Shown here: in pieces, positions 3,847 through 14,326 of the stretch
Layout of the letters: each line of letters opens with the position of its first letter
Position numbering within the stretch: position 1 is the stretch's first letter
From: a virus
DNA: 22,362 nucleotides
Direction: 5' to 3' (one strand)
Virus record (IMG/VR): IMGVR_UViG_3300040801_006079
Coordinates: 1 to 22,362 of that record
Position numbers and translations under genes: made by a program
The notes under the pieces: generated by a model
Told to the model about the DNA's origin: nothing
Seen by the model: the letters and a program-made list of their open reading frames with translations, nothing else
Database searches by the model: none

Positions 3847-4245
3847 TCAGAGCATGGCCGCAGCCGTTCGGAAAAGATCGTCGATCTGGGTTTCGGTCAG
3901 GCCAAGCTGGCCGCCGATGGAATTGATGAGCGCGCTCGATCGCGTCACGCTGCCGGCGTATTCCCATTCGATCCGCGCAGCCTCGCCCTCGTCTCCGGGC
4001 AGAGCCTCGAGAAATTGCCGCACCGTCGACAGCAGGCCCGCACCCAGCAGCGCCAGACGCGCCTGCCGCATCGAAACCTCTTGCGGCACCGGATGCGTGC
4101 TGAACCCAAGCGTGGCCTCCCAATCGGCGCGCGCCTGATCGAGATCGGCCTGCTGCGTGCCCTCGGGCAGCTCCAGCGTCAGCTCGCCGAAGTGGAAGGT
4201 GAAGCGCCCGGTGTCGGGATCCTGCGTGACAAAGAACTCGCTCAT
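3847..4245 (-). CDS. Small tail/fibre-associated protein, copy 1 of a paralogous pair (132 aa)
   Basis: The ATG at 4245 overlaps the gpJ-like stop (TGATG). The preceding GTG in frame is not needed. Residues 1-50 form a variable beta-rich domain (DTGRFTFHFGELTLELPEGT). Residues 53-132 form a conserved helical module (VPQEVSMRQARLALLGAGLL, GEAARIEWEYA, LGLTETQIDDLFR). That module recurs in the gene at 2057-2425 with roughly 50 of 80 residues identical. Small proteins with this module commonly lie just after tail fibre genes in phages and may be fibre subunits or assembly factors. Exact role unknown. Confidence 0.78.
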   Translation of the reverse strand: MSEFFVTQDPDTGRFTFHFGELTLELPEGTQQADLDQARADWEATLGFSTHPVPQEVSMRQARLALLGAGLLSTVRQFLEALPGDEGEAARIEWEYAGSVTRSSALINSIGGQLGLTETQIDDLFRTAAAML

Positions 4246-7200
4246 CACCCCTCCAGAAACGTCTCGGATGCGACCTGGGCACCGCCTGCCGTTCCCGGCG
4301 ACCGAATCTCGGTCAGCCGGAATTCGAACGCGCGCCGTGCCCCGGTCGAATTGGTGAAGGTGGCGGAGACGTTATCGGCCCCCGGCTCACTGGCGTTGAT
4401 CGGGGAGCCGGGCCCGGTGGCCACCGTCACCCAGGTGCTTGCGCCCAGTTGCCGCTGCTCGATCCGCGCGGTGATCGTCCCGCTGTTGCCGCCTGCCAGT
4501 CTCGCGATCTGGCCGGTCAGGAACCGGCTGCCGCCATTGTCGATCGACCGCGTGATGATCTCCTGAAAACCCACTGTCAGGCGCGTGGCCGCTTCCGGCG
4601 CGGGCACGTAGGTGACATTCATCGGCAGATCGACCGCCGCGCCATCGGTATGCGTATAGCGCACCGTGTAGGCCCCGCTTGCGACGATGCCGGAGAGCGT
4701 GACCGTGCCGGTGCTCGAATTGATGCTGGCCGATCCTGCCCCAAGGTTCTGTCCGGGCAGGCTCCAAGTTCCCCCGGTGATCGTCGTCGTCTCGCGGCGG
4801 GCCGTGTGCGTCACGGTGCGATTGCCGACATTGCCCGCCTCGCCCTGCTTGACCTCGATCACCGGGAACTGGGGCACGATGGTTCGTTGCTGAGTCGCGG
4901 TTACGTCCGCGCCGTCGTCGGCATTCGGACCGGGAACGAAGGCCGGATGCGCGGTCTGGTCTGCTGTCGCCGAAGTCACCATCGGCTCGGCGATGGCAAG
5001 TCGAACGTCTTGGGTTGAACCTGTGCTTGTGAAGCGCAGTTCGAACCGACCAAACCACCGATTGGCGGGCACCGTGACGAAGGCCCGCTGCATTCCGGCC
5101 GAATTGCCGATCAGACCCGTACCGCTGGCAATGACAGTTGCAGAGCCAGTTGCCAGGCTTGCATCATACGTCCAGAATTCAAGCTGCCACGCCCCGTTGG
5201 CAGCCCCCTGTCGCGAAACAAGCGATTGCACCGAAAGGCGCTCGCCCGGCGTTAGCTTGATCGCATCGCGCCTATCATTGCCGATGGAGAATTGCTGGCC
5301 GACCGCACTGACAAAACTGGAGCCACTGAAGAAGCGCACACCAGCCCCTGTCGCGTTGTAGTCTGTCGCGATAGACAGGCCCTGAGGATTGTGCAGCACC
5401 GCATAGCCGCGATCACCCTCCATCCGCGAGAACGGCACTCGGTTGGAGTCGCCAGCAGGAACACTGCTGGCCCGCCTGCTCGCTTCGTCAGCGATCCCGT
5501 CCAGCACTGTCTGGCGCGCATCGTAATAATCCACGAACCGCTCGTTGAAGAGCGGGCGCGTGATTGCGGTATTGGTCGCGCTGTCGATCGCGAGTGTGGC
5601 GAGATAGTCGATCAGGTCATCGTATTTTTCATCGAACGGGCCAACATTCACACCAAGCGTCACCGCGCGCGCCCGGATCGTCGGATACTCTGCGATAATC
5701 GCATCGCGCTGCTTCCTGATTTCCGGCTTCTCGTCGCGCGAAAGGATGTTGTCGCTGGTGATCGTGTTGATGACCGCATTGGCTGCGTCCGCATTCGCCT
5801 GCGCTGCTGCTGCATCCGCAAGCGCCTGCGCTGCGACCGCTGTGTCGCGGTCGATACGAACCAAGGTGATCCGGTCGGTGATGCCGCCCAGCGTCGCCTC
5901 GACCGTCACCTGTCGATTGCTCCCGAAATTGGCGACCGAAAGCGTGCGCGTGTTGCCGCTGCCACCCAGCGTCACCGAAGGGGTAGTGGACCAGGCGACG
6001 GTGCCGGGAAGATTACTCAGCAGCGCCTCGAGCGTGATCGTCTGCGACCCCGGAGCCGCCGCGCCATCGGTGAAGGTGAATGCCTGCGCGCTCGCCTTCA
6101 GCGCAAGCGTTGGCCCCAAGACGACTTCCTGCACCTTGAAGGTCGAGTATTCCAGATCGGTCGGTGTGCTGCCGCCATCGCCATAGGTGAAGCCGACATT
6201 GAAGGAGCGGCCATTCGCCGGGGTCGGCAGGTAGCCGTTCGGCCCCATGATGACTTCGAAATAGCGCCACGATCCGGGGACGTTTGCGATGTTGGGCCAG
6301 TAAGAATAGGTGCCGTTGTTCCAGCCCGCAGGGCCGGGGGAAATGTTGGCTCCCGCCGCATCGGCGAAAGCGGTGGTGATGCGGAAATTGCGGTTTCCGG
6401 TGGTCTTCGCCCAGACCGAGAGCTTGTAGGTCTTGGTCGGGTCAAGCGGCATCGGCGCGCTGAACAAGCTTCGAATTCTCGCCGTGGTCTCCACCGCGCG
6501 GATAGCCTTGCCACCGATCGGCAGATCGGAAGGTGTGACCACGCTGTAGGTCGCCCCGCCACCGGTCGAGGAAAGCGGAGAATTCCTCGCAGTCCCCCCG
6601 AACCAGCGATCAAGATCGTCGGTCTGCGTGCCCGGATTGATCGAGGCACCGTCAGCCCCGTCGACGCCCGCCTTGGACTTCGCCAGCGTATAGGTGCGGT
6701 CGTAATTCACACCCGCCCAAGCCGCTCGGATCGTGGCCGTGGCGAGGTCAACGCCGGGATCGGTGACAGTATAGACACCCGTGCTGGAATTGATGCTGAT
6801 CCAGCTTGGTGATGCGGGCGATTGCGCCGCAATCGAAAAGGTCGGCGTCAGCACGGTGTCGCCGCGCAGCAAGCGGATCTGCCCGCCCGCGCCGGTATAG
6901 CTGCCACCACTGCCATCCTGCGCCGTGGCCACGACATGCGCCTCGTTCGACACCAGCACGCTGATGCCGGGCAGGCCATCATCACCCGCAGGCCCGCTGC
7001 CCGCCTGAGCAATCAGCGCCCAACGCGCCACATCGGGCGGCGCGTTGCCAGTGCTGCTCGCCACGATCAGGCGATAGGACGAACCCGAGAAGATAACCTC
7101 GTCACCGCGCACATAGGCCGTGCCCGCGTCATAGCTTCCGCGCGCCACGTTGCGGGTGCCGCCGGGTTCGGCAGGCTGCAGCTGCGAAACCGCCGTCCCG

Positions 7201-9041
7201 TCCGGGTAGGCAAGCGCGCCGGCCGTGATCGGTCCGATCACCCGCCGATCGCCGAGGATCCCGTCGACGACATAGGATACGGCGACCCAGAAGGTTCCGT
7301 TCGAGGCCACAGGGATATCGAACCGGGTGACATCGGGGCGCGAGGTGGAGGCGAACGTCCACACCGTCCCGGCATTGGGCGCGCCTGCCTGAAGGACGTA
7401 TTCGAACACCACGAACTGCGCCGCCGGATCGTCCGCCGCGCCGGTGACCCGCAAAGCAGGCACCCGCACCCCGCCGCCGTCGATCTGTATTCCGGCCGCG
7501 CTCCATGCGCCCTCCGCCGGAGCGGCCACCAATGGCGGCGCAGGCTGGTCGTTCGCGATCGACCCGTCATCAAGCGGCGCGGTATCGCTGAAGACGCTCG
7601 CCGAGATCTGGCGCAGCGTCAGCTCATGGTGCCAGGCCTGATCAGACCCCCAGGCCTCGACCCGGAAGGTGAAGGTCGCCCCGCCAAAGTGGCGATCGCT
7701 TTGCCAGGTTACCCAGTCCCCCTCTTCGATGAAGGCGAATCGCGGCGGCAGCTTCACCTGGCCGCGCCCCCACAGGCGCCCCAGGCGGCGGATGATCTCG
7801 GCCACCCGCTGCGCCTGTCCGCCGTTCGTGACGAAGTCGAGCTGGGGCTGCTGTTCCCTTGGCCCGCCATCGGAGACGATATCGGCCAGCTCGCGCCGCA
7901 CCGGGGCGCTGTGCAGGTTCCAGCGCTGAGCCGGTTCGACATAGCGCGCGGCGACGGTGTTGATCCAGCCATTGTCCTGCTGGCCAAGGAAGTCGCTCCA
8001 CTGCACCGTGCTGCCAACCAGAAGATCGGCATCGGTGAAGTGGGCAACCGGGGCCTTTGCCTCGCCGGGATCGACCTCGACAGCGCCTTCCGGCTGGCTG
8101 ATCACCCCGCCCACTGCCACGGCGAAATCGCTCTCGATGTCGATAAACGGCTCGTTGGATGAAACGATGCCACCGATGCGGTAACGCGCCGTGCCTGCGA
8201 CTATCTCGTCGCACAGATTGGCGCGGGCGAAGACGTTGGCGGGCGGGGCCTCGATCGCGGAAAGCCCGCGTCCGATCAGCAGCATCCCCGGCTGGTCGGT
8301 CAGATCCCCGGCATAGATCCCGCGCTGCCAGTTGTGCCGGATGTCGATCGGGTTCTCGGTCCACTCCCAGGTGGCCGGATCGCTGCGTCGGTGCGCGCCA
8401 CTGCCGCCAACGGTGCTGTCCTTCCTCGGCTGGTAGCACCTGAGGCCGCGAACCACCCAGCGAAAGCGCGGGCGTCCGCTCGGCCAGACCGGGTTCTTGG
8501 CCTTCTCGTCGTCCGACTTGTAGGCGACGACGACATAGGCGACACCGCGCCCGCGATCGTTCGCGGTCCAGCCCGGCCCATTCGATGTCAGGATCGCCGG
8601 CACCGTCTGGCCCCAGGTGCCGGATCGCCAGAACACCTGCAGCTGGTTGTTGAACCCGGCAACGTTGCCGTCGGCGGTGAAGGCGACATAGCGATCGTCG
8701 ACGAAGAAGCCTTCCAGCGCGTCGCAGCGGTGATCGGCCAGCGCGATCACCAGCACCTCCCAGTCGGTGCCGTATTTTCCGCCATAGTTGAACGCATCGA
8801 CCAGCGAGCCGGACACCGCCGCGCGCCCGAAGATCGCCTGGCGCGGCTGCTCGCCAGCCTGCAGCGTGGCAGCCACCGCCGCGCGGCGGGGACCGCGCGG
8901 TGATCCCAGCAGGGCGCGTGCACCGGCAGAGAACAGCGCTGCGCCGATCGTGGCGCCCAGCGGCCCGCCGATCGCAAAGCCGATCGCGGCCCCGACAATG
9001 GTGGACCCGATCGAAACGATGCCGCGAATGACCTTACTCAT
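4245..9041 (-). CDS. gpJ-like host-specificity / tail-tip attachment protein (1598 aa)
   Basis: The largest gene in the window. Residues 8-45 are Gly/Ala-rich and hydrophobic (GSTIVGAAIGFAIGGPLGAT), as in many gpJ-type proteins. Residues to about 480 form the conserved hub-like region (KYGTDWEVLVIALADHRCDA, GIYAGDLTDQPGMLLIGRGL, EEGDWVTWQSDRHFGG). The rest is modular. There are fibronectin/Ig-like beta domains; a GPAGDDGLPG linker; an Ig-like unit about 693-790 ending SINSSTGVYTV; a carbohydrate-binding-like jelly roll; an Ala-rich coiled coil about 1060-1115; another beta region; and a second Ig-like unit about 1393-1480 with SINSSTGTVTL. It should form the central tail fibre that contacts the host. 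The start lies 8 nt inside the previous gene. Confidence 0.88.
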   Translation of the reverse strand: MSKVIRGIVSIGSTIVGAAIGFAIGGPLGATIGAALFSAGARALLGSPRGPRRAAVAATLQAGEQPRQAIFGRAAVSGSLVDAFNYGGKYGTDWEVLVIALADHRCDALEGFFVDDRYVAFTADGNVAGFNNQLQVFWRSGTWGQTVPAILTSNGPGWTANDRGRGVAYVVVAYKSDDEKAKNPVWPSGRPRFRWVVRGLRCYQPRKDSTVGGSGAHRRSDPATWEWTENPIDIRHNWQRGIYAGDLTDQPGMLLIGRGLSAIEAPPANVFARANLCDEIVAGTARYRIGGIVSSNEPFIDIESDFAVAVGGVISQPEGAVEVDPGEAKAPVAHFTDADLLVGSTVQWSDFLGQQDNGWINTVAARYVEPAQRWNLHSAPVRRELADIVSDGGPREQQPQLDFVTNGGQAQRVAEIIRRLGRLWGRGQVKLPPRFAFIEEGDWVTWQSDRHFGGATFTFRVEAWGSDQAWHHELTLRQISASVFSDTAPLDDGSIANDQPAPPLVAAPAEGAWSAAGIQIDGGGVRVPALRVTGAADDPAAQFVVFEYVLQAGAPNAGTVWTFASTSRPDVTRFDIPVASNGTFWVAVSYVVDGILGDRRVIGPITAGALAYPDGTAVSQLQPAEPGGTRNVARGSYDAGTAYVRGDEVIFSGSSYRLIVASSTGNAPPDVARWALIAQAGSGPAGDDGLPGISVLVSNEAHVVATAQDGSGGSYTGAGGQIRLLRGDTVLTPTFSIAAQSPASPSWISINSSTGVYTVTDPGVDLATATIRAAWAGVNYDRTYTLAKSKAGVDGADGASINPGTQTDDLDRWFGGTARNSPLSSTGGGATYSVVTPSDLPIGGKAIRAVETTARIRSLFSAPMPLDPTKTYKLSVWAKTTGNRNFRITTAFADAAGANISPGPAGWNNGTYSYWPNIANVPGSWRYFEVIMGPNGYLPTPANGRSFNVGFTYGDGGSTPTDLEYSTFKVQEVVLGPTLALKASAQAFTFTDGAAAPGSQTITLEALLSNLPGTVAWSTTPSVTLGGSGNTRTLSVANFGSNRQVTVEATLGGITDRITLVRIDRDTAVAAQALADAAAAQANADAANAVINTITSDNILSRDEKPEIRKQRDAIIAEYPTIRARAVTLGVNVGPFDEKYDDLIDYLATLAIDSATNTAITRPLFNERFVDYYDARQTVLDGIADEASRRASSVPAGDSNRVPFSRMEGDRGYAVLHNPQGLSIATDYNATGAGVRFFSGSSFVSAVGQQFSIGNDRRDAIKLTPGERLSVQSLVSRQGAANGAWQLEFWTYDASLATGSATVIASGTGLIGNSAGMQRAFVTVPANRWFGRFELRFTSTGSTQDVRLAIAEPMVTSATADQTAHPAFVPGPNADDGADVTATQQRTIVPQFPVIEVKQGEAGNVGNRTVTHTARRETTTITGGTWSLPGQNLGAGSASINSSTGTVTLSGIVASGAYTVRYTHTDGAAVDLPMNVTYVPAPEAATRLTVGFQEIITRSIDNGGSRFLTGQIARLAGGNSGTITARIEQRQLGASTWVTVATGPGSPINASEPGADNVSATFTNSTGARRAFEFRLTEIRSPGTAGGAQVASETFLEG

Positions 9042-10091: not shown

Positions 10092-10768
10092 GCGCGCAGA
10101 TCCTGAATGCCCACGATCGTCCCGCCGCCCAGCGCGCGCGCGGTGATGATCGGCCCCAGCCCGCTTTGCTCGGGCAGCAGCTGCATCACGCACATCGGGT
10201 TGTCGAGATGCGCGATCGCACCCGATGGCACGATCGCGGTGTTCAGCGGTGGCTCGATCATCACCAGCGCCTGCCCGGCACCGGTTGCGGTCGCGGGCAG
10301 TACCGCGCGCGCCATCGTGCGCCGGTCGAAATCGGGACCATTCCAGCGCAACCCGATGTAATCGCCCACGGCGATCTGGAACCCGGGCGGAAGGCCGTTC
10401 AGCGTCATCCGCGCATCACCATTGCTGTCGATGGCCTGCAGCCAGCTGGTCGCGCTGCCATCGAACGCGCCACCCCCGGCGCGGGTCAACCCGGCAAATC
10501 CGCCGCGATAGTTCAGCGGGAACCGGCGGGTCGGATCGTAGGCGTAGAAGCGCCGGATGCGTCCGCGCAGGCGGTCGAAGAACGCCTGCCAGCTGTCGGC
10601 ACTGTCAGGGTCGCTGCGTTCAAGTTCGAAGCGCGCGGACCACAGCGGCCAGCCCGCCTGCACGCCGCCCTGGCGTCCGCTTGCCTCCGGCGCGGCATAG
10701 TCGATCCGTTCGATATCCAGCCGCACGCGGGCGATGCCGCTGGGTGTATCGGGCTGCGCAAGGATCAT
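10088..10768 (-). CDS. Distal tail-like protein (226 aa)
   Basis: The first gene after the tape measure, where siphophages and gene transfer agents encode the distal tail or hub ring. The N-terminal half has IARVRLDIERIDYAAPEASG and WPLWSARFELERSD. These are followed by DSWQAFFDRLRGRIRRFYAY with DPTRRFP, a pattern I know from minor tail proteins in this position (W-x-AFF-x2-LRG...DP). The C-terminal half is beta-rich. ATGA overlaps couple it to both neighbours. The role is supported by order and this motif, not by a firm family match. Confidence 0.65.
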   Translation of the reverse strand: MILAQPDTPSGIARVRLDIERIDYAAPEASGRQGGVQAGWPLWSARFELERSDPDSADSWQAFFDRLRGRIRRFYAYDPTRRFPLNYRGGFAGLTRAGGGAFDGSATSWLQAIDSNGDARMTLNGLPPGFQIAVGDYIGLRWNGPDFDRRTMARAVLPATATGAGQALVMIEPPLNTAIVPSGAIAHLDNPMCVMQLLPEQSGLGPIITARALGGGTIVGIQDLRA

Positions 10769-12930
10769 GGGATCAATCTCCGGTCCTGCGCCTCGCGCAC
10801 GATGGTGACGATGCGACCAGGCAGACCGTCCTGCAGCTCGGAAAGCTGGGCACGAAGCCGCGCGATCGCCGCAGCATCCGCCCCGGTCGCATCGATGCTG
10901 ATCGGGATGGTGATGCTGGATCCGCCCAGCATGCGGCGGCTGTCGGAGTTGGAAAGGATGCTCAGGCCGCTGGTCCCGCCAAAGGCCAGTTCCGGCCCTT
11001 CCTCGCCAACCACCGCGAACTTGCCACTGGGGATCGGGCCGCCAAGCGCGCGCCCGCCAACGAACGATCCAAGAATGGCATCGAAACCGCCTCCAGAAGA
11101 CGGGATCGATCCGCCGCTGGAGAGCAAGCCACCAGCACCGCCACCGAAGATTGCGTCGGCCAGCGGGGCGATGATCGCGCGCTGGATCGCGATGCGCAGC
11201 AGATCGGCGATGATCTGGTCGGCGACCGAGCTGAAGACGTCGCCCAGCGATCGCACGCCGCGGATAGCATCGACCAGGCCGTTGTTGAGACTGTCCAGCC
11301 CGTCGATCTTGATCAGGTCGATCGCCTCGTTGATCTGCTCGGGCGTCTGGTTGAGATCGCGCAGATAGCGATCCAGCGTGGTCTCGTTCGCCCGTGCCAC
11401 CGCCGCCTGCCGGTCGCCCGAGGTGGCGCGCAGAGCGTTCAACCGGAGATCGGCATATTCCTTCTCTTTGTCGTTCGCAGTTTCGCTGTCGATAACGGCC
11501 TGCATCCGCGATTCAAGGAAGCGCTCCTCCGCCGCCAGCAGCGCCAGCGCGATCGCCTTCCTCTCGCCCTCGCTGTTCGCCAGATCCAGCTGGATCTGCA
11601 GCGCGTCCTGTTCGGCGCGATAACGCTCCTCGGTCAGCGCCAGCGCATCGCCTTCCAGCTCGCGGCGCTGGGCAAACTCGATGGCCTGCAATTCGGCATC
11701 GGCAAGGCGGGTGGTCGCGGCCTCCAGATCGGCCTTCTGCAGCTCGCTGTAGTGTTCGTCCGCCGCGATCTCATCCAGCGCGTCACGCCGCGCCCATTCA
11801 ACCTGCCGCGCCTCCAGCTCGGCGCGTTCGTCGGCGCTGGTGGCGATGGCGATGCGTGCGCTCAGGATGCGCTGGGTGATGCGCTGCAGATCGTCCTCGA
11901 ACCGCGCGGCGGTCTCCGCCTCGCTCGGCCCGGTGCGCCCGCCGCCACCGCCGCCGCGACCGGGCCTCAGAAAGCCCTGAAGTGCATCTTGATCGCCGTT
12001 TAGAGCCCGCTCAAGATTGTCCGCGATGCCAAGACTGCGCTTAGCCATGTCGTCCTGCTGGATTGCACCCACCGCTCGGAAATAGGCCTCGTCGGTGATC
12101 AGCGTCCCCCGATAGCTGCGCAGTTGTTCCAGCGCCTGCTGCGCGGTGTTGGTGCCGTCGACATAGCGCTGCACCACAGCCTCGGTCCCGTCACCTTGGC
12201 GGCCAACGCTGAGCCCGCCCCCCATTCCGCCACGCAAAACGATCTCGCCCTTGCGAATATCGCGCATGGTGGTCTGCGCCTGCATCTGCGAACGCTCAGC
12301 CTCGAACCGCATGGTCGCGGCCTGCGCTCGCGCGAGGTTCCAAAGCTCATTTGTCTGATTGACGATCTTGCCGGTAGTAAGGTCGATCACGCCGCCCAGA
12401 ATGCTCTGCGCATCTCCCATCCGGTCACTGGCCAGGTCGACCGCCTCGATCGCCTTTTCCGCCTCGAACAGCTTGCCGATGAACGGCGTCAGCACCACCA
12501 CCGCGCTGGTGATTGCGATCCCCCACGGCCCACCCAGGAAACCGGCGAGGCGGCTGGTCCCGCCCGTCATCATCTGCACAGCCTGCATCACCTGGCCGGA
12601 TTGCGATGCGAAGATCTGCATCGGCCGCGCGCCCAGCGCGTACATCGTGGCGACATCGTTCAGCTGGAAGCTCAGCTGCTGCATCCCCGCGCGCTGCGCC
12701 CCGGCAGAGGCGGTGACCGTGCGCCCGCCCGCCTCGAAGTTCTGCGACATGGCGCGCGCCTTCGTGCCCGCCTCGGCCATCTCGTCGCCCAGCCGGTCGC
12801 TGCTGGCCGCCGTCTTGTCCATCGCAGTGCCCAGCTGCTCGGATGCGCCCTTCGCGCGGGCCACGTCAGTGTAGAACGTGCCGTCGTCGGTGCGGATCGC
12901 AAGGAGGGCGCTGCCGAGCGTCTCAGCCAT
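10765..12930 (-). CDS. Tail tape measure protein (721 aa)
   Basis: Sets tail length and is ejected or repositioned at infection. N-terminal residues 1 to about 110 contain a coiled coil and LSFQLNDVATMYALGARPMQ followed by IFASQSGQVMQAVQMMTGG, a signature of tape measure proteins. A hydrophobic stretch follows (about 127-155, LAGFLGGPWGIAITSAVVVL). A Gly run near residue 325 leads into long Ala/Glu/Arg-rich coiled coils (about 335-540). The C-terminus has Gly/Ser-rich segments with GGRALGGPIPSGKFAVVGEE then GPELAFGG, the typical closing motif. At 721 aa it predicts a fairly short tail of about 110 nm, using the usual 1.5 Å per residue. The start lies 8 nt inside the chaperone frame; the stop overlaps the next gene (ATGA). 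Confidence 0.93.
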   Translation of the reverse strand: MAETLGSALLAIRTDDGTFYTDVARAKGASEQLGTAMDKTAASSDRLGDEMAEAGTKARAMSQNFEAGGRTVTASAGAQRAGMQQLSFQLNDVATMYALGARPMQIFASQSGQVMQAVQMMTGGTSRLAGFLGGPWGIAITSAVVVLTPFIGKLFEAEKAIEAVDLASDRMGDAQSILGGVIDLTTGKIVNQTNELWNLARAQAATMRFEAERSQMQAQTTMRDIRKGEIVLRGGMGGGLSVGRQGDGTEAVVQRYVDGTNTAQQALEQLRSYRGTLITDEAYFRAVGAIQQDDMAKRSLGIADNLERALNGDQDALQGFLRPGRGGGGGGRTGPSEAETAARFEDDLQRITQRILSARIAIATSADERAELEARQVEWARRDALDEIAADEHYSELQKADLEAATTRLADAELQAIEFAQRRELEGDALALTEERYRAEQDALQIQLDLANSEGERKAIALALLAAEERFLESRMQAVIDSETANDKEKEYADLRLNALRATSGDRQAAVARANETTLDRYLRDLNQTPEQINEAIDLIKIDGLDSLNNGLVDAIRGVRSLGDVFSSVADQIIADLLRIAIQRAIIAPLADAIFGGGAGGLLSSGGSIPSSGGGFDAILGSFVGGRALGGPIPSGKFAVVGEEGPELAFGGTSGLSILSNSDSRRMLGGSSITIPISIDATGADAAAIARLRAQLSELQDGLPGRIVTIVREAQDRRLIP

Positions 12931-13354
12931 CGGAAGGCTCCGCCGACGGTGCGCTCATCCCGCCGATCCCCATCCCGGCCCTGTCCTTCGCGCTTGCGGG
13001 CCGCGCCTTCTGCGGGCCGGTCGCTGCGCGCTGCAGGCGCCGTAACAGGTTGTCGCCCACGTCGCTCTTGAGGTTGCCGCCGCCCAGGGCGACGTCCTCG
13101 ATCCGGGCGATCCGTTCGCTTGCGTGGATGGCCGGCATCATCGTGATCAGGCTCGCGACCACAACCGAAGGAAGCTCTTCCAGCAGCTCGCGAGGGCTGA
13201 GGTGATAGAACCGCACCAGCCGCGGCAGGATGCGTCCCCAGTCTGGATCACGCCGCTCTGTGTCTGCCCCGGCAGAGGGAACTCCGGCGTCGTCCCCGCC
13301 GCCCGGTGCATCGCTCCTGCCACCTGGGCTGCGGATCGCAGCAGGAGCGCGGTA
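12923..13354 (-). CDS. -1 frame extension of the tail assembly chaperone (gpT part of gpGT)
   Basis: The -1 frame is open without a stop from before the proposed slip site to 12923. From about 13240 it encodes a convincing protein: DPDWGRILPRLVRFYHLSPR, then ELLEELPSVVVASLITMMPA, then IHASERIARIEDVALGGG. Its tail overlaps the tape measure start by 8 nt. There is no good independent start; the GTG at 13216 lies inside the conserved segment. If slippage occurs at 13354-13360, the fused product has 101 zero-frame residues plus 143 -1 residues, 244 aa. The last part is Ala/Gly/Ser-rich and probably flexible. This organisation matches the lambda gpG/gpGT principle. The exact slip position is inferred. 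Confidence 0.78.
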   Translation of the reverse strand, partial: YRAPAAIRSPGGRSDAPGGGDDAGVPSAGADTERRDPDWGRILPRLVRFYHLSPRELLEELPSVVVASLITMMPAIHASERIARIEDVALGGGNLKSDVGDNLLRRLQRAATGPQKARPASAKDRAGMGIGGMSAPSAEPSDG

Positions 13355-13656
13355 AAAACCTCGACGATCGCCAGCTTGTGCTGACCTGAAAGCTTGGCGA
13401 AAAGATCATCGCCGACATCCACCAGAACCGCGCGCGCGGCCAGGTCCACCAGCTGGTCCTGCTCCTTCGCCGCTTCCTCACCATCCTGCTGCTGCAGCGC
13501 GCGGATCCGCTCGCCCCAGCGGATGAAGCGGTGGTTCTGGATCACGCTCAGCTCGTCAGGGCTGAAGATCTCGTGAAACTCGCCGTCGATCTTGATGACC
13601 GGGCGCGTGATCTGCGTGAATAGGTCGAGCAGTGGTTCGGTGGTGGCCTCGGCCAT
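13147..13656 (-). CDS. Tail assembly chaperone (gpG-like, zero-frame product, 169 aa)
   Basis: Located between tail tube and tape measure genes, where siphophages encode a chaperone that coats the tape measure during tail assembly. Residues 1-100 look authentic: LLDLFTQITRPVIKIDGEFH, FSPDELSVIQNHRFIRWGER, a Gln/Glu-rich helix, then VGDDLFAKLSGQHKLAIVEV. From about residue 140 the zero-frame sequence (GDASCRGWCGSITSALASCW) loses protein-like quality, whereas the -1 frame becomes clearly coding, as expected of a gpG/gpGT pair. Val100-Phe101 are encoded by GTT TTT, the proposed slip site. The start is ATG with GGAG 8 nt upstream. Confidence 0.8.
   Translation of the reverse strand: MAEATTEPLLDLFTQITRPVIKIDGEFHEIFSPDELSVIQNHRFIRWGERIRALQQQDGEEAAKEQDQLVDLAARAVLVDVGDDLFAKLSGQHKLAIVEVFTALLLRSAAQVAGAMHRAAGTTPEFPLPGQTQSGVIQTGDASCRGWCGSITSALASCWKSFLRLWSRA
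13312..13360 (-). promoter_or_regulatory. Candidate -1 ribosomal frameshift signal: slippery GGTTTTT plus stem-loop
   Basis: On the minus strand the zero-frame codons GAG GTT TTT ACC give the heptamer GGTTTTT (plus 13354-13360), a rare T-run in this GC-rich gene. After a 4-nt spacer comes the stem CGCTCCTGC (plus 13341-13349), which pairs perfectly with GCAGGAGCG (plus 13312-13320). An inner TGCG-3nt-CGCA hairpin sits in its 20-nt loop. Slip site, short spacer and strong stem are the standard parts of a -1 frameshift element. GTT to GGT is an imperfect re-pairing, so this is not the ideal X XXY YYZ type. Confidence 0.5.
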
Positions 13657-13720: not shown

Positions 13721-14326
13721 TCAGGCCAGCGGGGCCTGGTGCTGCGTGATGTAGCGCCCGAAACGCTGCTCGGGGTCGGTCGCCTGCAGATCTTCCAGCA
13801 CCATGAAGGTCAGCGCCAGCGCCGCACCCTGGCCGCCCTTGCGGAACACCGGCTCGGGGCTGGCGCTCTCGTAGACGCGCGGGAACTCGTACTGCATGTT
13901 CATGGTCTCGTCCTCGGGCGAAAGGCCGCGCGCCAGCAGCGCGAACTCGCGGGTGCGCCCGACGCTCTGCGAAAGGCCGATCCTCTTGAAACCGGCCGTG
14001 CCGCTTCCCGCAGCGACCGTGGTCACCTCGTTGCCGTTCAGCGCACGACTGTAGGTCTCGATCGTCAGGTCGAGCAGCGTCATGCGCAGCATCAGTTCCT
14101 CGCTCTCGAGGAAGGCCTTGACCGGCCCGCTCGATCCCGCGGTGCGCACGTTGCTGTAGTTCTTCGAATGGCTCACTGTCACGCCTTCCTCGGAAAGGCT
14201 GCGGTCGCCGTTCTTGCCCAGCAGCGACCAGTCTCCGGTCGGATTGACGTTGATGAGCGGGAAGGCAGTACCGATGGGCGCGATGTAGACCGAAAGCGGC
14301 GCGCCGATGATTTCAAAAGGGGACAT
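13721..14326 (-). CDS. Major tail protein (tail tube subunit, 201 aa)
   Basis: A beta-rich protein of the usual size for a siphophage tail tube subunit. It begins MSPFEIIGAPLSVYIAPIGT, continues with FPLINVNPTGDWSLLGKNGD and EEGVTVSHSKNYSNVRTAGS, and ends with a typical AALALTFMVLEDLQA strand plus short tail. The preceding terminator and following tail chaperone fix its role. The ATG has GAGGAG 8 nt upstream, one of the stronger ribosome sites here, in keeping with high demand. A 64-bp gap separates it from the chaperone gene. Confidence 0.85.
   Translation of the reverse strand: MSPFEIIGAPLSVYIAPIGTAFPLINVNPTGDWSLLGKNGDRSLSEEGVTVSHSKNYSNVRTAGSSGPVKAFLESEELMLRMTLLDLTIETYSRALNGNEVTTVAAGSGTAGFKRIGLSQSVGRTREFALLARGLSPEDETMNMQYEFPRVYESASPEPVFRKGGQGAALALTFMVLEDLQATDPEQRFGRYITQHQAPLA

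Follow-up and report, generated by a model that had tools for sequence, protein, structure and literature searches.

A candidate programmed -1 frameshift at a conserved U_UUY slip site and stem in the predicted tail assembly chaperone gene of a phage lineage

Introduction

A precedent for a frameshift in phage tail genes is the tail chaperone frameshift of lambda G/GT, whose conservation in dsDNA phages was put forward by Xu, Hendrix and Duda (2004; as cited in PMC5009743 and PMC3711429). We analyzed a 22,362-nt stretch of viral DNA (positions 1 to 22,362 of the IMG/VR record IMGVR_UViG_3300040801_006079; hereafter, the window) that carries a comparable arrangement. As in lambda, the locus lies between the genes of the major tail protein and the tape measure protein, a short product and a -1-extended product would be made from a single start, and the short product presents an analogous predicted chaperone fold with a match to HK97 2ob9. 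In contrast to lambda, the slip site of the window is not GGGAAAG-like, it precedes the zero-frame stop by a long stretch of 68 codons and it is closely followed, in the window's lineage, by a conserved and covarying stem. Moreover, neither half of the protein has an informative Pfam match in any relative of the window.

Although the frameshift type itself is known from phage lambda, the slip sequence is unusual and its precedents are found elsewhere. The slip sequence of arteriviruses is RG_GUU_UUU, and the window shares the sequence GGUUUUU with the nsp2 frameshift site of PRRSV and the simarteriviruses. This -2/-1 frameshift is reported to be stimulated by protein and to operate in the -2 as well as the -1 direction (PMC6675879, PMC4937337); we found no evidence of a -2 product in the window. 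The heptamer G_GUU_UUU has also been proven by mutation and mass spectrometry to direct the 2B* frameshift of cardioviruses (EMCV and TMEV), where it depends on infection, through the viral 2A protein, and operates with noncanonical spacing on eukaryotic ribosomes (PMC4524249). The window presents the same heptamer, the same -1 direction and a downstream stem-loop. Unlike the cardioviruses, however, its lineage has a bacterial host, the spacing is 4-5 nt and the heptamer is variable among relatives. The original prediction described this sequence as an unusual slip site that departs from X_XXY_YYZ; this description is accurate, yet the cardiovirus site (PMC4524249) shows that it is not without precedent.

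In phages, the PRFect study, which likewise concerned tail chaperone genes, proposed the motif classes 'twofive', 'five', 'twofour' and 'twoonefour', with sites whose exact positions could not be fixed and that were given without experimental test (PMC10885494). Judging by the class names, the sequences GGTTTTT, TGTTTTT and GGCTTTT appear to belong to these classes. Unlike the PRFect sites, the position of the slip site is pinned by conservation in the window's lineage, which adds a covarying stem. We found no description of the slip site in this phage lineage in the mostly open-access literature that we searched.

Results and Discussion

Organization of the tail chaperone locus

The genes in this region of the window are encoded on the minus strand in the order major capsid protein, head-tail genes, major tail protein, chaperone ORF, tape measure protein and distal tail protein (Table 1). 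The chaperone ORF sits between the major tail protein and the tape measure protein, and the order is identical in phages Aussie, StopSmel and Mwe-Yong1. The extension ORF spans 13402 to 12923 and is offset by -1 from the chaperone frame; its end is overlapped by the start codon of the tape measure gene. A conserved domain of the extension opens with the residues DWG near 13246. The part of the chaperone that precedes the slip site is 101 aa long and the predicted fusion therefore amounts to 101 + 143 = 244 aa.

Table 1. Features of the tail chaperone locus, in window coordinates
Feature	Position	Strand	Evidence or details
Major tail protein	13721..14326 (14326-13721)	-	PHROG 117 major tail protein; relatives in phages
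Tail assembly chaperone, zero-frame product (169 aa; lambda gpG analogue; predicted)	13147..13656	-	Gene order and AF2 fold
Slip site G_GTT_TTT (candidate)	13354..13360	-	P-site GTT 13359-13357, A-site TTT 13356-13354
Spacer ACCG (4 nt)	13350..13353	-	Alignment of 38 loci gapless from slip site to stem
Stimulatory stem-loop (predicted)	13312..13349	-	Folding, RNAalifold consensus, covariation and shuffles
-1-frame extension (143 codons; lambda T analogue; predicted)	12923..13354	-	TAC (13354-13352) to TGA (12925-12923)
Tape measure protein	10765..12930	-	Pfam TMP_2 and PHROG tape measure matches

Gene order and the predicted fold of the N-terminal domain support the identification of the first ORF as a tail assembly chaperone. 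The AF2 model of this domain reached a mean pLDDT of 92 and its best match in BFVD was a tail assembly chaperone (E 5.4e-5, TM 0.64). Among the solved structures that were re-aligned, the HK97 chaperone 2ob9 ranked second, with a middling VIA-align Z score of 5.5 over 88 residues (rmsd 4.4 A). Searches of Pfam and PHROGs returned no informative or named match to either half of the protein, in the window or in its relatives; the unnamed PHROG 893 weakly matched 4 of 58 relatives. The predicted fold of the extension had no significant structural match.

Two other features of the window can be mentioned. Perfect strong hairpins without T tails are found on the minus strand at 13714-13683, 17471-17446 and 19123-19090, directly 3' of the stop codons that end the genes for the major tail protein, the major capsid protein and a protease-like product, and these might be mRNA 3' stabilisers or attenuators behind abundant structural genes. 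The minus-strand gene at 4245-9041 encodes a tail protein of 1598 aa that contains a Phage-tail_3 domain; it also shows a weak carbohydrate-binding module, and its C-terminal matches are repeat-like.

The slip site and stem in the window

The zero frame reads GAG GTT TTT ACC across the slip site, which lies in the context AGGUUUUU. Downstream, CGCTCCTGC (13349-13341) is the perfect complement of GCAGGAGCG (13320-13312) on the minus strand. The coordinates and the complementarity are those described in the original prediction, and its observation of a slip sequence GGTTTTT followed after 4 nt by a perfect 9-bp stem is therefore confirmed, with the addition that these elements lie on the minus strand, which had been left unstated. 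The inner TGCG/CGCA hairpin that the stem was thought to enclose is absent from the predicted fold. Folding yields instead an outer stem of 12 bp (13349-13338 with 13323-13312), with nine perfect outer pairs and two G-U pairs, around a 14-nt loop (13337-13324). In relatives that lack the outermost pair, the spacer is 5 nt long. A stem placed behind a spacer of 4-5 nt matches known -1 signals.

The window alone makes a weak case. The T-run had been considered conspicuous in GC-rich DNA, but the window contains 10 copies of TTTTT, with 9.9 expected, and we rejected it as a rare word. Likewise, the folding energy of the stem (z -0.25) is unexceptional for such GC-rich sequence. Only the inverted repeat is uncommon at this place: the probability that a perfect 9-bp repeat begins by chance in a given 12-nt stretch is about 0.004. 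It takes a comparison with relatives to make the slip feature convincing.

The -1 arrangement is conserved among relatives

We searched for relatives with the neighbouring major tail protein, a probe that is blind to the slip site, because the relatives must not be picked by the slip site itself. The probe alignment comprised the major tail proteins of the window, of the Sinorhizobium phages Aussie and StopSmel and of the Microcystis phage Mwe-Yong1 (loci L001, L002 and L003, respectively). This yielded 80 loci from viral contigs and four loci from bacterial genomes (Sphingopyxis, Sphingobium, Maricaulis and a Chloroflexi bin). We then translated the DNA that follows the tail protein gene and searched it with a profile of each protein half. 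The two halves could be recognised together in 84 loci, the window included, and the extension occupied the -1 frame in every one of them (84/84); we observed no in-frame fusion and no +1 arrangement among these loci. This bears out the claim that the chaperone and its extension occupy overlapping frames offset by -1. A search of the viral contigs with the single chaperone sequence gave no match. At locus L014, the homologue of the major tail protein is followed, after 4594, by unrelated ORFs, and the chaperone was not recognised in the 1.3 kb after this homologue.

Alternatively, the extension could be a separate protein translated from its own start by coupled or leaderless initiation, in which case no fusion would be needed. 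The records of Aussie, StopSmel and Mwe-Yong1 do show a small ORF after the zero-frame stop, and a GTG is found at 13216 in the window. However, the -1 frame of the window presents no ATG, GTG or TTG before 13216, which is already inside the conserved domain, and 70 of the 84 loci are devoid of any start codon in the 150 nt that precede the domain. A separate start would also leave unexplained the strict -1 offset of all 84 loci and the conservation of U_UUY and of the stem, and we consider it highly improbable.

Selection on the slip site

In each relative, we placed the slip-site Phe codon by protein alignment, without consulting the DNA. Phe was found at the slip column of 61 distinct loci, with the codon TTT or TTC preceded by T in 61/61 and with TTT in 55/61, whereas the control, 146 Phe codons located further upstream in these genes, showed a preceding T in 18 cases and T-TTT in only two; because the sequences are related and shared ancestry is ignored, neither these counts nor those of the stem represent independent events, and they are not exact probabilities. 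Among the stem-bearing loci, TTT was used at the slip site in 35/38, relative to 15% of background Phe codons. The codon that precedes the slip-site Phe is GTT, CTT or GCT, and these codons represent 10%, 6% and 6% of their families elsewhere. Indeed, TTT and NNT codons are strongly disfavoured in the rest of the chaperone genes.

The zero-frame peptides encoded at the slip site are varied (VEVFT, IDLFT, FKVFT, VQAFT and LAVFI). In 61/61 loci, the -1 frame stays open from the slip site up to the extension domain. The bases that precede UUU or UUY in the relatives are GGUU (17), GGCU (13), UGUU (12), CCUU (9) and others, and the P-site codons include GUU, CUU, GCU, ACU and more. The exact heptamer G_GUU_UUU is present in 14 of the 61 relatives, next to forms such as T_GUU_UUU, C_CUU_UUU and G_GCU_UUU, and U_UUY constitutes the sole invariant part of the slip site. 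Conservation of GGTTTTT and of the stem in related phages had been proposed as a check on the site. This check was passed, with T before every slip-site Phe and a stem that carries compensatory changes, but the conserved unit is U_UUY and not GGTTTTT as such.

It is conceivable that ribosomes slip elsewhere in the overlap, at the G-runs CCGGGGCA (13272-13265) or GCGGGGAC (13299-13292) or just before DWG. The overlap of the two ORFs spans about 250 nt with the -1 frame open throughout, and the linker from the T-run to DWG is poorly conserved. Both G-runs had been named as alternatives and are indeed present in the window; they are, however, unconserved in the aligned relatives, and the length of the linker ranges between 13 and 66 codons. 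The only conserved nucleotide element of the overlap consists of the T-run and the stem, separated by a fixed distance, which makes a slip at another position very unlikely. In 20 pairs of close relatives, 46% of the substitutions upstream of the site fell on position 3 of the zero frame, 61% of those past the start of the extension domain fell on position 3 of the -1 frame, and the linker was mixed. This periodicity puts the frame switch between the T-run and DWG, which agrees with a switch at the T-run without proving it alone.

Conservation of the stem

The stem was aligned across the 38 loci without a gap between slip site and stem, and RNAalifold recovered it unprompted. Over its 12 pairs, 90% of the cells are paired, relative to 36-65% when the partner is slid by 1 to 3 columns. 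Both sides have changed in 7 of the 12 pairs, and the number of both-side-changed cells is 17 vs 3.5 in shuffles, with none of 500 shuffles reaching 17. Compensatory changes include GCTCCGGC/GCCGGAGC (L004, L006 and L008), GCTGC/GCAGC (L053) and GCTCTTG/CAAGAGC (L048). We also searched viral contigs independently with the pattern TTTTTACNNNGCTCCTGCTG, which specifies the slip site and the 5' arm but leaves the 3' arm free. In total, 28 of the 32 matches were chaperone genes, all of them with the -1 arrangement and with a correctly spaced 3' arm (28/28), whereas the four matches outside chaperone genes did not possess the 3' arm. A stem of at least 10 bp was found in 65% of T-run loci vs 0.8% of codon-order shuffles. 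Loci beyond the main group often have another strong hairpin in the same place (L055 and L073), and a clear stem was absent in a few of the T-run loci examined (L045 and L054). The stem also encodes a helix in the zero frame, which could account for part of the conservation of single bases.

These patterns also bear on transcriptional slippage, by which RNA polymerase would produce a mixed mRNA population on the T-run. A homopolymer run is located at the switch point, but five T's represent a short run for polymerase slippage and relatives with only TTTT or TTTTC keep the arrangement (L042, L044, L031 and L036). Because these variants serve equally, and since slippage of the polymerase has no need for a compensatorily conserved stem 4-5 nt downstream, we regard this explanation as extremely improbable.

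Distant relatives present other slip sequences

Thirteen loci did not have Phe at the slip column. Several present canonical heptamers near the end of the zero frame: A_AAA_AAG (L066 and L070), C_CCA_AAA or A_AAA_AAC (L071), A_AAA_AAA (L075 and L076) and A_AAA_AAC (L082). Most of these loci with canonical sites belong to lower-GC genomes, and U-runs are found in L004-L055. Close to where the -1 overlap begins, two loci (L064 and L074) carry a run of five G's within GAG GGG GAA; neither a T-run nor a canonical heptamer was found in L039, L063, L064 and L074. According to the original prediction, relatives that keep the -1 overlap without the T-run and the stem would refute the slip site. The distant loci do keep the overlap without the T-run, yet the canonical heptamers carried by several of them represent a replacement of the T-run and not a refutation of the site. 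The -1 overlap is thus retained within one gene family in which the slip sequence has changed from U-runs to canonical sites.

Proposed mechanism of frameshifting

The comparison of relatives shows that the -1 arrangement is constant, that U_UUY is under selection and that the stem is constrained; that ribosomes slip, how efficiently they do so and what the fusion is for are what we infer. We consider it very probable that the chaperone is subject to programmed -1 ribosomal frameshifting of the lambda G/GT type, which supports the original reading of the site as a candidate of this kind. The most likely products would be a G-GT-type fusion of 244 residues beside the 169-residue chaperone. Most ribosomes would synthesize the 169-aa chaperone, and a minority would be halted by the hairpin while tRNA-Phe occupies UUU. 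This tRNA would slip one base back, from UUU to UUU inside UUUUU, and UAC would be read next. In the resulting 244-aa fusion, the C-terminal domain would join the tape measure and the tail tube subunits, a function for which smaller amounts would be needed.

This slip would not be the tandem re-pairing of a canonical X_XXY_YYZ site: re-pairing from UUY to UUU is always possible in the A site, but the P-site codon would re-pair poorly. In the window, the tRNA of GUU would face GGU, with a mismatch at position 2, and the shifted P-site codons of relatives include UGU, CCU, GGC, CGU, AGU and others. Since the P-site codon and its preceding base vary, only the re-pairing of the Phe codon appears to be strictly required; P-site re-pairing looks dispensable and seemingly unselected. 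It is tentatively proposed, at somewhat less than even confidence, that a large tail-chaperone lineage uses a minimal U_UUY slip site close to a stem, where tRNA-Phe alone re-pairs, and that this non-tandem mode persists across many phages.

A variant of the mechanism, compatible with -1 frameshifting, is that a single tRNA slips once UUU has moved into the P site, before the A site (ACC) is filled. The codon before UUU would then be free to vary with its re-pairing unselected, as observed. However, the distance of 4-5 nt between UUU and the stem is the usual spacing for UUU in the A site; in the single-tRNA model, only 1-2 nt would separate the stem from the A-site codon. Single-tRNA slippage is thus possible but less likely than not. 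Both models predict an identical peptide; the spacing favours UUU in the A site, although the sequence cannot tell the A site from the P site.

Implications

These results call for a correction of annotations, as the extension appears in the public records of relatives as an ORF of its own and in truncated form. In the deposits of Aussie, StopSmel and Mwe-Yong1, the chaperone is split into two hypothetical proteins and the frameshift is missed; the second ORF is annotated from after the zero-frame stop, with a loss of about 30 conserved residues. More generally, selection at the nucleotide level marks the position and the stem of a tail chaperone slip that does not follow X_XXY_YYZ. Because position and stem are marked in this way, the need for P-site re-pairing in bacterial -1 frameshifting becomes directly testable through the natural variants GGUU, UGUU, CCUU and GGCU.
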